38,217 nt of DNA from the IMG/VR virus record IMGVR_UViG_3300035698_013896, positions 1-38,217 of that record; one strand, given 5' to 3'. Below are positions 2,862 through 22,201 of the stretch, piece by piece; position 1 is the stretch's first letter; each line of letters begins with the position of its first letter. The notes under the pieces are model-generated. The model saw only the letters and a list, made by a program, of their open reading frames with translations, was not told where the DNA came from and did no database searches. The stretch is from a virus. The position numbers and the translations under genes were made by a program.

Positions 2862-4264
2862 ATCATATTTTATCACAATCAGCTCTAGTATCAATCAATC
2901 CAGTTATTTCTAAAAAGGAAACCTCTGGATTTTTTACATCGCTGCCATATAACGAACTCGGTAATGATATCAATACTGCTATCATCAAACTAGGTGCTAC
3001 CAGTGCCAATATGCCAACCGCTTTCTATCATGGAGTTATTGCGGAAAGTGGTGGGCAAATACTTAAATATTATCCAGTTAAATCTGTTGATGATTCGTCT
3101 ATTAAAAAATCTGTTGAATCTATTGCCAAAATATACGGTGAAATAAATCTAGCAACGCCTGTATGCAAGGTTAAAGAGCTTGTGGTATGGAAAAGGGTAC
3201 AGGCCGTTCAAGTGCAATCGGCAGAAGAGGCACTTGAAAAAATTATTGCCGATATGGAAGAAATTTACGAAATAAAATATTCCAATCTAAACAAAGGATA
3301 TTCTAGGATAACAAAGGCCAATCCAATGACTCCAGCCGGGTTAACCAGTATTCAGAATCAGTTGCGTAGACAATTGGAAAAAACAACATTACCGGCAGAT
3401 GCCTCTCAGTTGACTAAAATTATTAGGGCTACCGCTGGTACCGATTGGCTAAAGTCCCAATCCACAATTGATGCGGTAATGAAGGAAATCAGGACTGCAA
3501 TGCCCGGCAGTTCAATTCTGTCAAAAACCTTACCAAAATATAATAAGAATATTGAGGGTAGTTCAATCAATGTATTTGAGGGCGTTAGGGAAAATTTCAA
3601 ATCAACTCAAAAGGTTTCCATTGATCTTGACCTAAGTTTAAAGGACGAAGAGGCAATCAAGGCCCTGTCTGACACTGGAGGGCTATATCTAAGAGATTCG
3701 TATGGTAACAGGTCTGAATCGTTGTCAAACAAGGCAAACAAGATTGTACAGAAAGGTCTTGAAGACGGACTTGGAAGAGGTGAGATAACTTCAATTCTAC
3801 AAAACAGTCTTGAAGGAACTTATGAGAGTTACCGCAAGGGGTATTTGAATGTAGTTGCATCAACCTATGTTTCTCGTGCAAGGTCACGGTCAATGGCTAA
3901 TGGATATGCGGAGGCAACAATTGAAGAGGCCGAAGTTCTTTCAATGATGGATGATGCAACTACTGAAATCTGTAAGTTTCTTGATGGTCAAATTATTTCC
4001 GTTGGTGATACTATCAAGATGATGGATGCTGTTGACTCCAATCCAGATCATGAATATGTTAAGACTGCAATGCCTTGGATGAAGCAAAATAAGAGTGAAA
4101 TAAGCATTCCCGGTGTTGGAGTACTGGCAACAAAAAACACTGATGGAACGTGGAAACAAAAAATACCAGCGTCAAAGTTTGGTAAAAGCAAGATCGGATT
4201 CCCCCCATATCATGGCAATTGTAGGACAACTACAATCGGTGTGATTCGCACTATCCAAGTGTGA
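2858..4264 (+). CDS. minor head protein, phage Mu gpF-like (MuF)
   Basis: MuF proteins sit inside or at the portal vertex and are needed for head morphogenesis. In this 468-residue product the C-terminal domain carries the family hallmarks: an YVSRARSRSMANGYAEA helix, the DDATTEICKFLDGQ motif (equivalent to the DERTCPxCxxLDG of relatives) and the terminal FPPYHGNCRTTT segment (usual PPxHPNCRC). The Cys and His residues of this zinc-like cluster are present. The N-terminal 330 residues are helical and divergent. The start overlaps the upstream stop by 4 nt (ATGA) and has only a poor ribosome binding site, so translation is probably coupled. A promoter lies just downstream of the stop. Confidence 0.88.
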   Translation: MNHILSQSALVSINPVISKKETSGFFTSLPYNELGNDINTAIIKLGATSANMPTAFYHGVIAESGGQILKYYPVKSVDDSSIKKSVESIAKIYGEINLATPVCKVKELVVWKRVQAVQVQSAEEALEKIIADMEEIYEIKYSNLNKGYSRITKANPMTPAGLTSIQNQLRRQLEKTTLPADASQLTKIIRATAGTDWLKSQSTIDAVMKEIRTAMPGSSILSKTLPKYNKNIEGSSINVFEGVRENFKSTQKVSIDLDLSLKDEEAIKALSDTGGLYLRDSYGNRSESLSNKANKIVQKGLEDGLGRGEITSILQNSLEGTYESYRKGYLNVVASTYVSRARSRSMANGYAEATIEEAEVLSMMDDATTEICKFLDGQIISVGDTIKMMDAVDSNPDHEYVKTAMPWMKQNKSEISIPGVGVLATKNTDGTWKQKIPASKFGKSKIGFPPYHGNCRTTTIGVIRTIQV

Positions 4265-9279: not shown

Positions 9280-11292
9280 ATGAAAAAACGAATCCAGTTA
9301 ACAGCCGACATAGCACTATCTATGACCACGGCTATAATTCCAGTAATGGACAAGAGAGATTTGGAAAACGTAACCAAAACTCTTCGTTCATTATTCGACT
9401 CTGGAATTATGGCCGTGATCGTTATAGATTCGGCAGACTTGGAAATTTCAATACTTCGTTCTTTCATGGAAGTACCTTGGAAGAAAGCATCATATTTTAA
9501 GGTTGATCCCCTCCCCGGTACAGAGGTGTCAAGAGCACGTCTAATCAATTACGGTTCTGCTAGAGTTAAGACAGATTTTATACTAGCAACAGAACCCGGT
9601 TTTATATTCTCCCCAAAAACAATAAAATCGCTGTTTAAACCGCTTTCGATAGAGAAGTCCATACTAGTAGTCCCAAAAACTTATTACCTGTGTGACAGGG
9701 CATCAGAGTCGATTATTTCTGACAATATTGCACCATCATTACAACTAGAATCTGATAAGAATATACCAAACTCAGAAAAACCGTTAAATCTCCCCGGTGG
9801 TGTTTTTATCTGTGACAGGTTTTCATTTTATTCCAGTGGCGGGATGGATCAGGAAATATATGATTCACAAGTCGAGTCAATTGATCTTGCGGAAAGATGG
9901 ATAACTCACGGTAAACGTATTGATTCCAGCGAGTCACTTTGTCGCCTGTGGAAGGATAGAACAAATCAGATACAAATACAAGTCAGGCAACCGGACAAAA
10001 AAGGCATATTACAGTTTGCTTCAAGTGGTTTAACCAATAGGATTGACCCGGTGGTAATAGTCCGGCAAAAGGTTGTTTCAGGCGATGCCAAAGGCATTAC
10101 AAGAGAGCTTGCAATCAAGCCATTAAAGAGCACAAGAAAACGTGTGATGATAATTGGTGAAAGTTTGGCTCTCGGTGGAGCTGAGAAAATGACTGTAGAT
10201 ATTGCGAACGCACTGGTAATGGATTCTGGAATTGAAGTGTCGGTCGTATTGACAGTGGATGCAGAAGGCGTGTTTAGAAAGGACTTTCATTCAAATGTTA
10301 AGGTGAGCTTGGCAAGTACTATTGATAAAATTGTTGAAACTATCAAGGCCGATTTACCCTATGCTGTTCTGATAAACAATTCAAAACTTGCGTCACTATG
10401 TCTCCCGCAAATTGTCGAACAAGCTGCTCCACCGTATATCACAATTCTATTACACGGGTATAGTGAGTTCTCCGTCAGACTTATACCAAAGGAGATTGAG
10501 GGTATCTTAGACGAGGTTATCACCATCTCCGGTCATGCGAGAAACGGAATTGTCGGTCGTAGGCCACATTGGAAAAACAGAATCAAGGTCATTGACAATT
10601 ATGTCGACGTTGAAAAGTTCAAACCACGAAAAGAGGCCAAGAAACTTATCAGCAGCTATGGTTGGAAAAGCACTGATCCAATCTACGGGTATCTGGGAAG
10701 GATATCTGGTGAAAAAGGTTTGATTACAATGATTGATATCTTCTCACGCAGTCTGCGATGGGAACCAAATGGAAGACTTTTAATTATCGGTGGCGTTGAC
10801 GAGAAAGCAACTGCACTGAGTAAGTACTATCAAGATCAGATGGATACGTTTGTAAAATATATTGACCAGAAAAATCTTGCTCACCGGGTAGCGATTACAG
10901 GGCTAGTGAAAGACCCGTGGAATTACATCCCTGCCATTGACGTTTTTATGATGACATCGCTAACAGAAGGAACCCCATTAGCATTGTTAGAGGCGATGGC
11001 TTGTGAGGTGCCTTGTATTAGTACCGATGTCGGCAATGTGTCAGAAATATTGAATATTAGCATGGGTCGCATCATTGGCCGTGGCGGAGTGGAAATGAAT
11101 CAAGATGACCGGGATACATATTCACGGGCTTTGGTTGATATGGTCAGGGATTCTGAATTAAAACAAAAGGGAAAGAATTGCAGAAGGTTTATTCAGCGAT
11201 TTCATTCATTACAAAGATTTCAGGCGGATGTTAGGACTCACTTTAAAAAGATTCTGTCCAACGTCCAAGACAAGGCGGCTGATGCCGCATAA
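9280..11292 (+). CDS. two-domain glycosyltransferase (GT2-like plus GT4)
   Basis: The 670-residue product joins two glycosyltransferase domains. Residues 14-225 look like a GT-A/GT2 fold (TTAIIPVMDKRDLENVTKTLRSL, later LPGGVFICDRFSFYSSGGMDQEIYDSQVESIDLAERW), but the place of the metal-binding DxD reads ATEP (103-106), so this domain may be inactive. Residues 288-660 form a GT-B/GT4 domain: LGGAEKM (298-304), LLHGYSEF (391-398), YLGRISGEKG (471-480) and EGTPLALLEAMACEVPCISTDVG (563-585), with the usual acidic EX7E-type element. It would transfer a sugar from a nucleotide sugar to an unknown acceptor in the cytoplasm. Its place between capsid and neck genes points to virion-protein glycosylation. 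The start has only a distant GGA. Confidence 0.87.
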   Translation: MKKRIQLTADIALSMTTAIIPVMDKRDLENVTKTLRSLFDSGIMAVIVIDSADLEISILRSFMEVPWKKASYFKVDPLPGTEVSRARLINYGSARVKTDFILATEPGFIFSPKTIKSLFKPLSIEKSILVVPKTYYLCDRASESIISDNIAPSLQLESDKNIPNSEKPLNLPGGVFICDRFSFYSSGGMDQEIYDSQVESIDLAERWITHGKRIDSSESLCRLWKDRTNQIQIQVRQPDKKGILQFASSGLTNRIDPVVIVRQKVVSGDAKGITRELAIKPLKSTRKRVMIIGESLALGGAEKMTVDIANALVMDSGIEVSVVLTVDAEGVFRKDFHSNVKVSLASTIDKIVETIKADLPYAVLINNSKLASLCLPQIVEQAAPPYITILLHGYSEFSVRLIPKEIEGILDEVITISGHARNGIVGRRPHWKNRIKVIDNYVDVEKFKPRKEAKKLISSYGWKSTDPIYGYLGRISGEKGLITMIDIFSRSLRWEPNGRLLIIGGVDEKATALSKYYQDQMDTFVKYIDQKNLAHRVAITGLVKDPWNYIPAIDVFMMTSLTEGTPLALLEAMACEVPCISTDVGNVSEILNISMGRIIGRGGVEMNQDDRDTYSRALVDMVRDSELKQKGKNCRRFIQRFHSLQRFQADVRTHFKKILSNVQDKAADAA

Positions 11293-16072: not shown

Positions 16073-18352
16073 ATGTCACAAGAATTGCTTTCGAGCAAAT
16101 GGATTACCAAAAGAGAAGCCCCGGGCGTGGTTAACATTAACAAGGAATCGTTTGACCTGCCAACGTTTGTCGGTATAACAGAACGTGGAGAGATTGGACA
16201 GTGGACACAGCTAGCGTCATGGCCTGATTACATTGATACATTCGGTGACGTAACTGTAAATTCCGATCTGTCAATTGCCATCTATCTCTTTTTTAAAGAG
16301 GGAGGCTCTAAGTGTGGTGTTATCAGGACGGTGCATTATACAAACATTGACAGTGCAGCATCACTTACGGCAGTAAAGGGTGATCTTGATCTTTCGACAG
16401 ATACAGTAGCACCTTCAAAGGCCAGTCTGGTCAATACCGAGTCGGAACCATTTGTACTCACCACCGGGGATACTTTGGTAACAGAGATTGTTAATGATGC
16501 AGTGTCGTCCGGTGACAAGACATTAACAATCACTGGATTGCCGGCAACAGTTGAATCAGTGGCGGAAACATTCGATCTTGAAGACGAACAAACGATCATT
16601 GTCAAGGTGGATCAAGGACCCGCCCAAACGATTGAAATATTGGCAACTGAAGTCGTGGATATTGACGCTTGCACTGCCCTTGAAATTGTCAATATAATTA
16701 ACGAAAAGGGTAGCGGCTTGCGAGCTACAGTAAGTGCAAGCAAGATTCAGATTCGCTCCGACAAGGCTGGCACAGGCTCTTATATTGAAGTCACTGGTGG
16801 AACTGCCAATGCCGCACTACAATTCTCGACTGTAGAAGTACAGGGAACTGGAACCGTGTCTGATATCAATGCTGTTGATGCTGATGAGATTGCAGACCTG
16901 TTGGATACCCTGTTGGACACAGAGGGAAGTGCTTCTGCTGTTGGCTCCGTTATTACCATTGAGTCCATTGGGACAGGAACCGACTCTACTGTACAGATAA
17001 AAGCAGCATCTACCGCAGATACTAAAATTGGATTTGTCAATGTCATTCAAACTGGTGGAGCAGGCGGTGTCGATGTAACTGCTACTGTCGAGACAAAAAC
17101 AGCGGGAGCTTATGGTACAAATTTGCAGATCAAAATATCTGCCGCTTCGTCTGGTGTCGCATCTGAATTTAACCTTACCGTTATTGATAACGGTTACTCA
17201 AAAGAGGTGTTTCCCAATCTTACTATGGATGAAGATGAAACCAGATATGCCACAGATATTATTTCTGCGACAATTGGCGGATCGAATTTCATTGCATTCG
17301 TCGATAATGAAACATCCGGTACGGTATTGCAGAGAAGACCAGTCAACGGTACATTCGGTGGCCTCACTGGTGGAGATGATGGTCTTGATGATATTGCGGA
17401 AACTGATTTTATTGGAAGTTCTGCTGCTGAGAATGGGATATATGCACTGACCGGGAATAACACTTCTGACCTTCTACTCGTTCCACATTATTCAAGCCTT
17501 CCGTCGGTATCTGCGGCAATGGTCGAATACTGTGAAGAAGTAAAATATGGTAACATGTTCTTCGTAATTGATCCACCTGCATCCATGTCTGCTACAGGTA
17601 TTGTTGACTGGTTGGCAAATACTGCATTGCTGACAAATATTTCAGAGCTTGGTGCAGTCTATTGGCCGAGGACAAGAATTACAAATATGTGGAAATCTGT
17701 TTTCGGAAACGATGATACTACTGTTGCTGCTCCAAGCGGTCAGATTGCCGGATTGTATGCCCGTGTCGGTGCAGACGGAGAAGGTGGAATTTACAAGACT
17801 CCGGCTGGAACTGATAAACAAGGGATTCTCTATACCGCAAAAGGTTTTGAGGATGTTATTGACGGTAAGCACGATTGCGAGAAAGAGGGCAAGAAGGATA
17901 TCGTTGATCCGAAACGCATTAACATTATCACTCGTGATGATGGACCGATATATGTCGATGGTTCTTATTGCCTAAAATCGGACGGTTCATTCCCGTTCGT
18001 TGCCCAAAGTCGTGGAACAATCTTTATCGGAAGATCGTTAATATCTGGTCTGCAATGGGTACGACACAAAAGAAATTCAATCATCCTCAGACGCAGGGTA
18101 CAAAGATCGGTACAGAAATTCCTTGTAGATCAAATGAATGTTGATGCATTTTCTGGTAAAGACCCGGCTACCGCATTTTTCCTCGACGTATCGGATCAGT
18201 TGAATAAAGCGTCTGTCAGGGCACAGGGAAAACTATTGATAAGAATTGGACTGTCGTATGACGATCCAATCATTCATGGTGTTCTGCTCATAACCAAGGA
18301 TACGAGAGTTCTTGAAAACGAGCTTTCTGCATCTGAAACCACGGAAGGATAA
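16073..18352 (+). CDS. tail sheath protein with inserted repeat domains
   Basis: The sheath is the contractile outer tube. The 759-residue product starts with APGVVNINKESFDLPTFVGITERGEIG (the usual sheath N-arm and first strand) and ends with RTIFIGRSLISGLQWVRHKRNSIILRRRVQRSVQKFLVDQMNVDAFSGKDP... and LLIRIGLSYDDPIIHGVLL, the conserved C-terminal domain of phage_sheath proteins. Between about residues 110 and 335 lies an insertion with at least two related beta modules: 163-253 (TIIVKVDQGPAQTIEIL...TGGTANAALQF) and 254-330 (DADEIADLLDTLL...STADTKIGF). They would project from the sheath surface. AAGGAGG precedes the ATG. Followed 11 nt later by the tube gene. Confidence 0.9.
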   Translation: MSQELLSSKWITKREAPGVVNINKESFDLPTFVGITERGEIGQWTQLASWPDYIDTFGDVTVNSDLSIAIYLFFKEGGSKCGVIRTVHYTNIDSAASLTAVKGDLDLSTDTVAPSKASLVNTESEPFVLTTGDTLVTEIVNDAVSSGDKTLTITGLPATVESVAETFDLEDEQTIIVKVDQGPAQTIEILATEVVDIDACTALEIVNIINEKGSGLRATVSASKIQIRSDKAGTGSYIEVTGGTANAALQFSTVEVQGTGTVSDINAVDADEIADLLDTLLDTEGSASAVGSVITIESIGTGTDSTVQIKAASTADTKIGFVNVIQTGGAGGVDVTATVETKTAGAYGTNLQIKISAASSGVASEFNLTVIDNGYSKEVFPNLTMDEDETRYATDIISATIGGSNFIAFVDNETSGTVLQRRPVNGTFGGLTGGDDGLDDIAETDFIGSSAAENGIYALTGNNTSDLLLVPHYSSLPSVSAAMVEYCEEVKYGNMFFVIDPPASMSATGIVDWLANTALLTNISELGAVYWPRTRITNMWKSVFGNDDTTVAAPSGQIAGLYARVGADGEGGIYKTPAGTDKQGILYTAKGFEDVIDGKHDCEKEGKKDIVDPKRINIITRDDGPIYVDGSYCLKSDGSFPFVAQSRGTIFIGRSLISGLQWVRHKRNSIILRRRVQRSVQKFLVDQMNVDAFSGKDPATAFFLDVSDQLNKASVRAQGKLLIRIGLSYDDPIIHGVLLITKDTRVLENELSASETTEG

Positions 18353-18363
18353 GGAGGCTTTAA

Positions 18364-18822
18364 ATGAGTAATAAATATTCACATAAATACGCATTCGCCA
18401 TTGAAATTGATGGCGTGGAAGAAGCAGAGTTTGAGAGTTGTTCTGATCTTGGCATGGAGGTCGGAGGTGTGGAATATTGGGGTGGCGGTACATTGGTTGC
18501 ACATGAAGAACCGGGCAGGTTAACGGTAGATGATGTGACGTTGACAGTCGGTAAATCATCCAGCTTGGAACTCCATGAGCTTTTTAAGAAAACTCTTAAT
18601 CCTGCAATCGGCATTGGCACACAACAGGGTGTTGGAGACAATGATCCTTCGTTTACAATGGATGTTGTCGAAAAGAACAGAGATGGTTCCGAGAGAGCTA
18701 GAACTCGCCTGAATGTCAATTACACCAAGCGATATGTTCACGGGCAATGGGATAACAAAGCAGATGAGGTCGTGATACAAACGATTGTCCTCAACGTTAA
18801 GTATCCAGAACCAATCACCTAA
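18364..18822 (+). CDS. tail tube protein (T4 gp19-like)
   Basis: The 152-residue product matches the T4-like tail tube/gp19 family in length and pattern: YAFAIEIDGVEEAEFESCSDLGMEVGGVEYWGGG near the N-terminus, then the L-x-V-D-DVTLTVGKSSSLELHELFKKTL segment, and a final VLNVKYPEPI. The protein stacks as hexamer rings to form the inner tube that the sheath encloses. AAGGAGG precedes the ATG. The sheath-tube order and the next two genes (chaperone, tape measure) are canonical. Confidence 0.9.
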   Translation: MSNKYSHKYAFAIEIDGVEEAEFESCSDLGMEVGGVEYWGGGTLVAHEEPGRLTVDDVTLTVGKSSSLELHELFKKTLNPAIGIGTQQGVGDNDPSFTMDVVEKNRDGSERARTRLNVNYTKRYVHGQWDNKADEVVIQTIVLNVKYPEPIT

Positions 18823-18908: not shown

Positions 18909-19766
18909 ATGGTAGACACAGAAAAAAAGATAGTTGAAGAAAATGCTGAGGAACGTGTTAACAAGGGAAAGTTTACAGAATTTTCCTTGGTGTCCGGTCT
19001 GGTTTTAACGGCACGAAAATTCACACTCGGTGATGAGGATATAATAAGTGATGAAAGTCGTATGCGTAAGGGAATGGCTGTAATACTGGACAGGATTGTA
19101 AAGGATATTGTTGATCCTGGCATGTACGGTGATCTTGGAATTATCAAGAAAGTTGGAGATAAATGGCAGATTGATTGGAACAATATATTATCCGGTGACC
19201 GGGTAGACCTGTTACTTTCAAACAGAATAAGCACTTACGGTCCTGAATTTTCATTCCTCTGGAAATGCCCACAGTGCGATGCGACTAAGTATATTGATGT
19301 GGACTTAGAGGAAATGTTGGCACTTAAACAATTTCTTTCACAAGAATCAAAACAGAAACTTGCTAATAACCAGCCATTCATATGCAGGTTGGAAGATGCC
19401 GATACATCCGTTGAATTTTCATTGCAAAACGGTGCTCACGAAAAAGCGGTTATGCATATGCAACGTACTGGACAGATCACACAGGGTCGTCAGTCGTTGA
19501 GCATCATGCCAAGAATTAAAAGAATATCCGGTATAGACGATGCCAAGAAAAAACGTTTTTTACAAAAAGAAATGACTTCATCCGATGCATCTTTACTACG
19601 AGATGCAATGGACGAGGTTGATTGCGGTGTAGATACGTCACTAATTGTTAGTTGCAATGTTTGTAATTATGTTGGAGAAACAGAACTCCCTTTCGGGCGG
19701 GGCTTCTTATCGCCTCAGAAGAAGATTCAGGCGAAACGCAGGAAGAGGGTAGAGGCGAACCTGTAA
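18909..19766 (+). CDS. tail assembly chaperone, short product (zinc-binding, T4_baseplate-like)
   Basis: The product has 285 residues and lies between tail tube and tape measure, the usual place of the chaperone (lambda gpG). Cysteine pairs CPQC (120-123) and CNVC (249-252) could hold zinc, and the C-terminal VDCGVDTSLIVSCNVCNYVGETELPFGRGFLSP resembles the 'C..C...lPF..FF.P' end of the T4_baseplate protein family. The mid region GRQSLSIMPRIKRISGIDDAKKKRFLQ is helical. A CCCTTTC heptamer at codons 261-262 should send a fraction of ribosomes into the -1 frame, making a 357-residue protein. AAAAGG precedes the ATG by about 9 nt. Confidence 0.82.
   Translation: MVDTEKKIVEENAEERVNKGKFTEFSLVSGLVLTARKFTLGDEDIISDESRMRKGMAVILDRIVKDIVDPGMYGDLGIIKKVGDKWQIDWNNILSGDRVDLLLSNRISTYGPEFSFLWKCPQCDATKYIDVDLEEMLALKQFLSQESKQKLANNQPFICRLEDADTSVEFSLQNGAHEKAVMHMQRTGQITQGRQSLSIMPRIKRISGIDDAKKKRFLQKEMTSSDASLLRDAMDEVDCGVDTSLIVSCNVCNYVGETELPFGRGFLSPQKKIQAKRRKRVEANL
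19674..19724 (+). promoter_or_regulatory. -1 programmed frameshift signal (slippery site, upstream SD, downstream hairpin)
   Basis: The heptamer C CCT TTC (19688-19694) is in the X-XXY-YYZ register of the zero frame, and both tRNAs (Pro, Phe) can re-pair after a -1 slip. GGAG (19674-19677) stands 10 nt upstream, the spacing of the stimulatory Shine-Dalgarno in dnaX. Downstream, CTTCTT (19703-19708) pairs with AAGAAG (19719-19724), beginning 8 nt after the heptamer. GGGCG/CGCCT (19695-19699/19711-19715) interleaves with that stem and could give a pseudoknot. Confidence 0.78.
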
Positions 19767-19981
19767 GTGGTATTCATCTGATCTTACCAAGATATAAAAG
19801 ATCAGATATTTACAGAAAGGCTTTTGAATTGTGTTGGAAGGATCACGGTGGATCAGGTTTAAATATTGATTGGAAATCGGTTTTTAATTTAACACAAGAT
19901 GAGGCTGATTTGATGTTGGAAATGATATCTGATAGGCGAAAACGTGAAGCACAAAACATAAGCAAACAATATAACCATTGA
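19694..19981 (+). CDS. tail assembly chaperone, -1 frame extension (long product, gpGT-like)
   Basis: This is the -1 reading frame joined to the preceding gene by slippage at 19688-19694. It adds 95 residues after codon 262 and ends at a TGA at 19979-19981, just before the tape measure ribosome binding site. The frame is open from 19667. Its content is protein-like (YKRSDIYRKAFELCWKDHGG, then WKSVFNLTQDEADLMLEMI, then a KREAQNISKQ tail), and it fills a 227-nt gap that has no other gene. It has no start codon with a ribosome binding site near its beginning. By analogy with lambda gpGT, the extension should bind the tape measure protein while the common N-terminal part recruits tube subunits. 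Confidence 0.78.
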   Translation, partial: RAGLLIASEEDSGETQEEGRGEPVSGIHLILPRYKRSDIYRKAFELCWKDHGGSGLNIDWKSVFNLTQDEADLMLEMISDRRKREAQNISKQYNH

Positions 19982-19993
19982 GAAGGAAATAGC

Positions 19994-22201
19994 ATGGCAC
20001 TCAATAATCTTGGACTAGGATTTGTTTTTACTGCCAAGGATATGGCTAGCGGGGCAGTTCGTGGTATCAGGAATAATATTGAAGGTCTTGGATCATCTTC
20101 CGAGCAGGCTCAAACCAAGATAGATAGTGCATCAGCTTCAATGGGCAGGGGCTTGAAAATGATGGGTGGTGGTGCTGCGATATTAGGAGCAGTTGCCGCA
20201 CCAATGATGGTGTCAGCTTCATGGGAATCTGGAATGTCTGAGGTCTGGACGGTCGCAGATATTACGAAAGAAAAATTAACCATAATGGGTGATGAAGCCC
20301 TTGGCGTGATGGCCAAGTATGGTGGTGAGCTTGGTAACACCACAAAAGCCCTTTACAACACTCTCAGTGCGTCTATCCCGGTAGAGGAATCAATAGCATT
20401 CTTGAACACTGCAATGATGGCCGCCACTGCTGGCGTGAGTGATGCCAATACCGCTGTTGACGGTCTTACAAATGTCTTGAATGCATATACGAACCAGTCG
20501 TATACAGCAACACAGGCTAGCGATATGATGTTTGCGGCAATCAAGGGCGGAAAGACCACGTTTGGTGAGATGTCTCATTCTATCGGTGAGGTGAACGGAC
20601 TTGCCAATTCATTGGGACTTGGATTTGACCAGATTGCCGCTGGTTTCGCCACGATGACAAAGGGCGGTAACAATACTGCCAAGAGTGCCACCATGTTGAA
20701 AGCAGCTCTAATGGGCGTATTGCAACAGCAGAAAATAGCGAAGAAGATGGGACCCGAAGTTGAAGCGGCATTCAGTCTTGAAAATCTCAAGGCGAAAGGT
20801 CTTCAGCAGTGGATGGTAGAAGTAACCGAATCTGTCGATGGCAGCAAATTAAAATTAAAAGAACTCATTGGCTCTGGAGAGGCATTGAACGCAATATTGG
20901 CAATGACTGGCAAAAACGCAGAAACTGCCGCTGCCGATCTGTGGGCGGTCAAGCATTCGACTGGTGCGACCAAAGAGGCGTTTGATAAAGTTGCCCAATC
21001 GTTCTCATTCCAATCAGATAAGGCCACCGCTGCAATCAAGGTGCTAATGGTTCATGTAGGCAAGGGGCTGATGGAGGCTATCACGCCCGTCATTGGTGTT
21101 ATTGGCGATCTGGTTATGGGTATGGCAGATTTTGCAAAAGAGAATCCGGGCTTGACTTCTGCGATTATGAAAACGGTTGCAGTACTAGGAATGTTATTGT
21201 TTGCTATTGGAACCGTGACGTTGGCAATGGGAGCATTCGGTATTGCCAAAATATTCTTCGTCAAGGCAATTACAAATATGACGATTAGTGCAATTGGTGC
21301 AATGTTTAAATTTAAAGTAAGTGTATTGGGGAGTATGAAAGCAGCTACGATTGCTGTCTATAAATTTGTGGCTAAAAGTACTGCTTCAATGGTGAAATGG
21401 GCTGCACGACAGGCCGTATTGATGGCAGGTGCATTAAAACGAGTAATTGTTACGATGGCGGGATATATGTTCTGGGGTGCGGTTGGAATGATATCATGGG
21501 CAGGTTCAGCAGTCGCAGCAGCAGCAACATTTATGACAAGCATGATTCCAGCATTGATCGCCGGAACTACTGCTGTCTGGTCGTTTACAGCCGCATTATT
21601 GGCAAACCCGCTTACATGGATTGTTGTGGGAATAATGGCTCTAATTGCTGGCCTTGTATTGCTAGTCGTATATTGGGATGAGGTAAAGGTGATGGCCTCG
21701 AATGCGATTAGTTATATTTCAGAAGCGGTGTCAGGTTTTGCAAGTTTATTTATGGGTGTAATGTCGAGTGCGTGGGATTTTGTCTCTGGATTATTCAGAC
21801 GTGGTGCTGCATTTTTACTCGAAATGATGACAATGCCGTTACGTGCAATATTGAGTATGGCATCAAAAATACCCGGTGTTGGAAAGTATGCAGAACAATT
21901 GGAAAGTTCTATCAATACTGGCATAGAGGTCGTCCGGGGCGATACTGGTACAGGTAACGAAACCGATGTTGCACCTGCCGCTAGTGCTACTGCTGCCGGT
22001 CAGGTTCAGATAACACAAGAGGCGGCTCAGACTTCAAGCTCCGGTGATACAGAGGCTATCAGGGACGCTACTGTGGCGATGAAACAAGCAAGTGATCGAC
22101 CGATTGAAACGGTGGTGGTACTCGATGGTGAGAAGATTGCAAAAGCAGTTGCCAAACAGAACAATAAAACTGCCGACAGGCAATATTCGCCGGGAGAATA
22201 A
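19994..22201 (+). CDS. tail tape measure protein (TP901-type)
   Basis: The 735-residue product sets tail length; by the usual rule of about 1.5 angstrom per residue it would give a tail near 110 nm. The N-terminal region (FTAKDMASGAVRGIRNNIEGL...) and the block with ASWESGMSEVWTVADITKEKL, LYNTLSASIPVEESIAFLNTAMMAATAG and GEVNGLANSLGLGFDQIAAGFATMTKGG are the TP901 core domain. Several hydrophobic segments follow between residues 390 and 590 (VAVLGMLLFAIGTVTLAMGAFG, later AGTTAVWSFTAALLANPLTWIVVGIMALIAGLVLLVVYW). The C-terminus is low-complexity and ends in a small helical part. AGAAGGAA lies 7 nt upstream. Confidence 0.92.
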   Translation: MALNNLGLGFVFTAKDMASGAVRGIRNNIEGLGSSSEQAQTKIDSASASMGRGLKMMGGGAAILGAVAAPMMVSASWESGMSEVWTVADITKEKLTIMGDEALGVMAKYGGELGNTTKALYNTLSASIPVEESIAFLNTAMMAATAGVSDANTAVDGLTNVLNAYTNQSYTATQASDMMFAAIKGGKTTFGEMSHSIGEVNGLANSLGLGFDQIAAGFATMTKGGNNTAKSATMLKAALMGVLQQQKIAKKMGPEVEAAFSLENLKAKGLQQWMVEVTESVDGSKLKLKELIGSGEALNAILAMTGKNAETAAADLWAVKHSTGATKEAFDKVAQSFSFQSDKATAAIKVLMVHVGKGLMEAITPVIGVIGDLVMGMADFAKENPGLTSAIMKTVAVLGMLLFAIGTVTLAMGAFGIAKIFFVKAITNMTISAIGAMFKFKVSVLGSMKAATIAVYKFVAKSTASMVKWAARQAVLMAGALKRVIVTMAGYMFWGAVGMISWAGSAVAAAATFMTSMIPALIAGTTAVWSFTAALLANPLTWIVVGIMALIAGLVLLVVYWDEVKVMASNAISYISEAVSGFASLFMGVMSSAWDFVSGLFRRGAAFLLEMMTMPLRAILSMASKIPGVGKYAEQLESSINTGIEVVRGDTGTGNETDVAPAASATAAGQVQITQEAAQTSSSGDTEAIRDATVAMKQASDRPIETVVVLDGEKIAKAVAKQNNKTADRQYSPGE

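Follow-up and report, generated by a model that had tools for sequence, protein, structure and literature searches.

Slippery heptamers of phages include GGGAAAG in lambda and TTTTTTG in P2, and frameshifting in the tail assembly chaperone genes of long-tailed phages was reportedly described by Xu, Hendrix and Duda in 2004. Among long-tailed phages this frameshift is represented by gpG and gpGT of lambda, and T4 has been described as an exception to this otherwise widespread arrangement (PMC5009743). The lambda G/GT kind of frameshift mechanism is thus already known. What is new in the locus described here is the protein family, a near-invariant CCCTTTN heptamer, a shift direction that differs between branches of the family and a link to T4; no earlier description of these points was found in the literature searched, outside of which many subscription papers fell.

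Tail module of the window and its relatives

The window, that is, the whole stretch of DNA that was analysed, is a 38,217-base IMG/VR virus record. It contains genes for portal, protease, HK97-type capsid, sheath, tube, tape measure and baseplate proteins, a gene content that identifies the phage as contractile-tailed. A single gene lies between those of the tail tube and the tape measure protein, which is the gene order of the lambda G/GT kind:

16073-18352, + strand: tail sheath (phrog_17610 tail sheath, E 8e-33; phrog_15814, E 4e-135)
18364-18822, + strand: tail tube (PF06841, E 3e-12)
18909-19766, + strand: 285-aa short form of the tail assembly chaperone, a member of the T4 gp26/gp51 family with a zinc ribbon (phrog_150, PF12322, AlphaFold2)
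19994-22201, + strand: tape measure protein, ATG at 19994 (PF10145, E 4.5e-19; phrog_23013, E 8e-44)

A group 1 glycosyltransferase domain (E 1e-22) was found in a 670-aa protein that is encoded at 9280-11292, within the structural module and between the capsid and tail genes.

The protein encoded at 18909-19766 matched phrog_150, annotated as baseplate hub (E 3e-8), and PF12322 (E 1e-4, with 22.2 bits, under the curated cut-off of 24.5 bits). PF12322 was also matched at E <= 0.01 by 31 of 35 chaperone relatives, the best value being 2e-16. By these profile matches the window chaperone belongs to the PF12322/phrog_150 family of T4 gp26 and gp51. The AlphaFold2 model of the short form had a pLDDT of 92.7; its best viral fold match was the SP-15 baseplate hub (E 5e-13), and no solved structure resembling it was found by fold comparison.

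Used as a single-protein query against IMG/VR, the window chaperone gave no match. Relatives were gathered instead by means of alignments of the sheath and of the tape measure N-terminus, which yielded about 60 IMG/VR loci, and two further loci (L066 and L067) came from metagenome-assembled genomes labelled Myxococcales and Deltaproteobacteria. An iterative HMM located the chaperone in 61 loci, 49 of them with distinct ends. The set with a -1 extension comprised 44 relatives, equivalent to 35 clusters at 70% identity, with a median pairwise identity of 32%; L024 was excluded because its contig stops before the shift site. The nearest relative of the window chaperone (L004) is 40% identical. 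When the heptamer context was used as an exact DNA pattern, 22 contigs were retrieved, some of which had been collected before; all 20 loci newly read from them showed the chaperone followed by the same -1 extension layout. This layout was observed in the Myxococcota metagenome-assembled genomes (L066 and L067) and in viral contigs such as L172, L180 and L182, whose names suggest isolate genomes, so that cultured hosts may be available.

Slippery heptamer, open -1 frame and extension

The first-pass annotation of this DNA had proposed that a 227-nt gap between the chaperone and tape measure genes is filled by the -1 frame of the chaperone gene, entered at a CCCTTTC heptamer. The gap was reproduced base by base, and the -1 frame was found open from 19667 to 19981, bounded by a TAA (19664-19666) and a TGA (19979-19981). 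Translation across the shift gave a product of 260 + 97 residues, the 357-residue long form that had been predicted. The relevant features are:

19667-19981, + strand: open -1 frame, TGA stop included (translation; open in all 44 same-layout relatives)
19674-19677, + strand: GGAG, candidate SD-like stimulator (anti-SD energy in the 3rd percentile of the window gene)
19688-19694, + strand: putative slippery heptamer C_CCT_TTC, the sole in-register XXXYYYZ in the overlap (30 of 35 clusters have CCCTTTN, and the other 5 have TTTTTTN close by)
19688-19978, + strand: frameshift extension, 97 aa, predicted helical C-terminal domain with an HGGSGL motif (35-cluster alignment; phrog_20255, E 2.7e-9; pLDDT >90 in the C-terminal part)
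19703-19745, + strand: candidate downstream RNA stem, 8 nt after the heptamer, with inner pairing 19710-19715/19729-19734 and outer pairing 19703-19708/19740-19745 (fold -13.6 kcal/mol)

That CCCTTTC at 19688-19694 is the only perfect in-register heptamer of the overlap was likewise borne out when the region was checked base by base. Read in frame 0, the site encodes Leu-Pro-Phe/Leu and follows the last CxxC of the zinc ribbon. CCCTTTN was present in register at these same codons in 30 of the 35 clusters, mostly as CTC CCT TTC, compared with two occurrences in a background of 111,279 codons taken from other large frames, and its conservation is therefore far above chance. The remaining five clusters all have an in-register T_TTT_TTN: TTTTTTG in L014, TTTTTTT in L037, TTTTTTC in L046 and L057, and TTTTTTA in the distant L042. 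In the first four of these it lies a few codons downstream, at an aromatic pair. The rows with TTTTTTN are scattered over the tree, and well-supported branches force at least three changes, a rough count given the long branches and unsettled bootstrap. One or the other heptamer thus accompanies an open -1 frame in 35 of 35 clusters. CCCTTTC had been regarded as rarer than A- or G-rich heptamers; it is unusual in general, but within this lineage CCCTTTN is the rule. The literature searched described no bacterial use of CCCTTTN or CCCUUUC, a weak negative since most subscription papers fell outside the search; in phage 9g, CCCUUUUUUU has been reported for a -2 shift (PMC4276943).

The extension frame was not broken by stops in any of the 44 same-layout relatives and runs in each to just before the tape measure gene. 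In the 35-cluster alignment, features common to the extension are the HGGSGL motif and, towards the C-terminus, a helix with R..EA; phrog_20255 was matched in 22 of the 35 members, and the predicted structure consists of helices. Neither a tblastn search of the extension against phage records nor a search with its fold gave a significant match; the best fold hit had an E of 1.7, and the fourth was gp51 of Acinetobacter phage ZZ1 (E 2.3). The distance from the opening of the -1 frame to the heptamer is only 3 nt in five clusters (L004, L011, L023, L042 and L053), 6 nt in L037 and 9 nt in L002, so that in these seven clusters the frame change cannot take place any earlier.

A conserved stimulator was sought across the 35 clusters through SD-like energy and downstream folding, and none was found. 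The GGAG noted 10 nt upstream of the heptamer is present in the window but not conserved, its energy falling at or below the 10th percentile in only 12 of the 35 clusters; the element differs by lineage, some members having a full AGGAGGT a few nt upstream and others nothing. The proposed CTTCTT/AAGAAG hairpin (19703-19724) can form, but it is weak alone (-3.0 kcal/mol) and an overlapping fold is preferred. This fold pairs TCGCCT (19710-19715) with AGGCGA (19729-19734) at -8.6 kcal/mol, and is extended by pairing of CTTCTT (19703-19708) with 19740-19745 to reach -13.6 kcal/mol over 60 nt. Downstream folding was in the 6th percentile within the window gene, and at or below the 10th percentile in 10 of the 35 clusters. 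By chance, 3.5 of 35 clusters would be expected at this threshold for either element. The SD-like and stem elements thus look optional, and the conserved upstream SD and downstream hairpin of dnaX-type stimulated frameshifting are not seen here, since both occur only in the window and some of the clusters.

The comparison of these loci makes it very probable that two forms of a tail assembly chaperone are made from the gene between tube and tape measure, by -1 slippage on C_CCT_TTC. Heptamer, open frame and extension are all conserved among the relatives, which strongly supports the functional -1 signal of the first-pass annotation; from this conservation we infer that slippage occurs, and with an efficiency that yields both products. 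The 285-residue short form would come from the majority of ribosomes, which would read CTC CCT TTC GGG and terminate at 19766. In a minority, tRNA-Pro and tRNA-Phe would move one base back on C_CCT_TTC and pair with CCC TTT; translation would then proceed to 19981 and yield the 357-residue form with its predicted helical domain at the C-terminus. If the division of labour resembles that of lambda G/GT, the tape measure protein may be bound by many short forms, and tube subunits recruited by a few long ones.

Alternatively, no frameshift might be involved, and the extension might be a small gene of its own whose translation re-initiates at, or is coupled to, the chaperone stop codon. The frames do overlap, an ATG, GTG or TTG precedes the domain in the extension frame in 12 of the 35 clusters, the locus of Atu_ph07 (L083) has an ATGA overlap, and a 63-aa stand-alone version is listed in phrog_20255. 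In the other 23 clusters, however, no such codon is found before the domain, and nine of the 35 have none even before the HGGSG column; the first possible start in the window is a TTG inside the domain. Since re-initiation would also leave unexplained an in-register heptamer kept through synonymous positions, we regard it as improbable. A frame change made by transcriptional slippage and not by the ribosome is more improbable still: the run of eight T in L037 could support it, but the runs in CCCTTTC are only three long, and the codon register that tandem tRNA slippage requires is kept in 30 of the 35 clusters.

Hardly any credence can be given to the remaining explanation, in which the heptamer is kept only for the needed Leu-Pro-Phe residues and the -1 frame is due to chance or is a decaying relic. 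Leu-Pro-Phe/Leu is indeed conserved in the family, and in most members frame-0 residues run past it (GFFLP). Yet CCT is the Pro codon at the site in 30 of 30 clusters of the CCC type, some of them from genomes of about 68% GC, whereas CCT accounts for 44 of 347 other Pro codons in the same genes. Under independence, the log10 P for this is about -26, and the C at the third position preceding CCT contributes a further -13 or so, both values being rough because related sequences are not independent. Moreover, CCCTTT occurs in only 2 of 495 other Pro-Phe/Leu pairs, and a decaying frame would show stops, which no relative of this layout does.

A sister group with a +1 extension, and T4 gp26 and gp51

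Four distant relatives (L038-L041) lack the -1 extension and have a homologous one in the +1 frame that continues past the stop. A scan with their proteins gave 80 loci (L084-L163), 59 of which have distinct ends. All 59 have a +1 frame that stays open for another 43-50 residues and offers no start codon ahead of its conserved segment (CF.Y...DYE.LLDQ.E.L.R...GWTL.DIRSLS.RER.NW); the two frames overlap by 14-26 nt in 49 of 59. At the frame change, 58 of the 59 loci have TTT_CGN, which precedes the stop by 9 nt in 57 of them and by 12 nt in the other, while the remaining locus has TTT_CAA; among 177 other TTT codons of these genes, none is followed by CG. A +1 slip on UUU_CGN would call for just this pattern, and the site is a candidate +1 frameshift. 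According to the literature, UUU_Y is prone to +1 shifts in bacteria, and influenza PA-X has the site UCC_UUU_CGU (PMC5009743). Profile comparison indicated that the -1 and +1 extensions are homologous (E 7e-7; E 8e-36 over 287 columns for the full long forms).

Frame continuations were also observed in cultured phages. A +1-frame continuation fills the gap after the hub gene in SP-15 (L069), LIS04 (L070), GXN1 (L068) and Mel-JY01 (L082); in Atu_ph07 (L083) it is the -1 frame that fills the gap, and TTTTTTC and an ATGA overlap are present. In the annotations of these five phages the gap is empty or holds a separate small protein. In a huge phage of 595 kb (L072; LR756511.1), the hub homologue ends near locus position 3130 in GGT TTT TTC, with TTTTTTC in register, beyond which the -1 frame goes on to encode an extension of helical appearance.

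Two T4 proteins gave strong matches to both PF12322 and phrog_150:

L073:7803-8429, - strand: T4 gp26, 208 aa
L073:8480-9229: T4 gp51, 249 aa

These matches, together with that of gp26 to gp51 in a profile comparison (E 4e-13), identify the two as paralogues. In an alignment to a profile built from all long forms, gp26 was matched over residues 10-198, ending before the extension, and gp51 over residues 4-249, through the extension. The C-terminal end of gp51 resembles GWTLSDIRSLSVRERQNWLERA. Compared alone with the extension, the gp51 tail reached an hhalign probability of 10-27%, which is not significant, the tail being too short for significance; the link of gp51 to the extension therefore rests on the full-length alignment and on the contrast between gp26 and gp51. 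We infer that T4 makes a short chaperone (gp26) and a long one (gp51) from two genes. With little more than even confidence, we favour an ancestrally frameshifted gp26/gp51 family, with -1 shifting on CCCUUUN/UUUUUUN in one branch and +1 shifting on UUU_CGN in another, in which T4 has two paralogous genes instead.

Comparison with known frameshift systems

The locus has in common with the lambda G/GT kind one gene placed just before the tape measure gene, an XXXYYYZ near its 3' end, probable low-level -1 slippage and a long form with an extra C-terminal domain. Unlike the lambda protein, the window protein is a zinc-ribbon member of a T4 gp26/gp51-like family, and its lineage has CCCTTTN where phage sites are usually G/A-rich or T-rich. 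The hub assembly chaperones gp26 and gp51 of T4 (PF12322, phrog_150) are of the same family as the window chaperone by profile; they differ from it in being encoded by two separate genes, with no frameshift, that are not between the T4 tube and tape measure genes. The lambda-type chaperone frameshift would thereby extend to the gp26/gp51 family, which suggests why T4 itself is without one. Annotation can also be corrected, the extension being currently listed as an unrelated small protein (phrog_20255).

Outside phages, the flavivirus frameshift site CCCUUUU of West Nile and Japanese encephalitis viruses is of the same C_CCU_UUN heptamer class as that of the window (PMC3835772, PMC11507841), and some Flaviviridae have U_UUU_UUU at the site, in parallel with the CCCTTTN/TTTTTTN alternatives of the chaperone relatives. 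Flavivirus shifting, however, involves eukaryotic ribosomes and strong downstream structure, in genes unrelated to the window chaperone. The +1 sister group (L084-L163) shares the core TTT_CGN with the influenza PA-X site UCC_UUU_CGU (PMC5009743); here the gene is that of a phage tail chaperone and UUU is usually preceded by UUG where PA-X has UCC, so that the core site alone is alike. The family would thus offer two naturally conserved candidate bacterial shift sites for homologous domains, CCCUUUN (-1) and UUU_CGN (+1), useful for comparing mechanisms.
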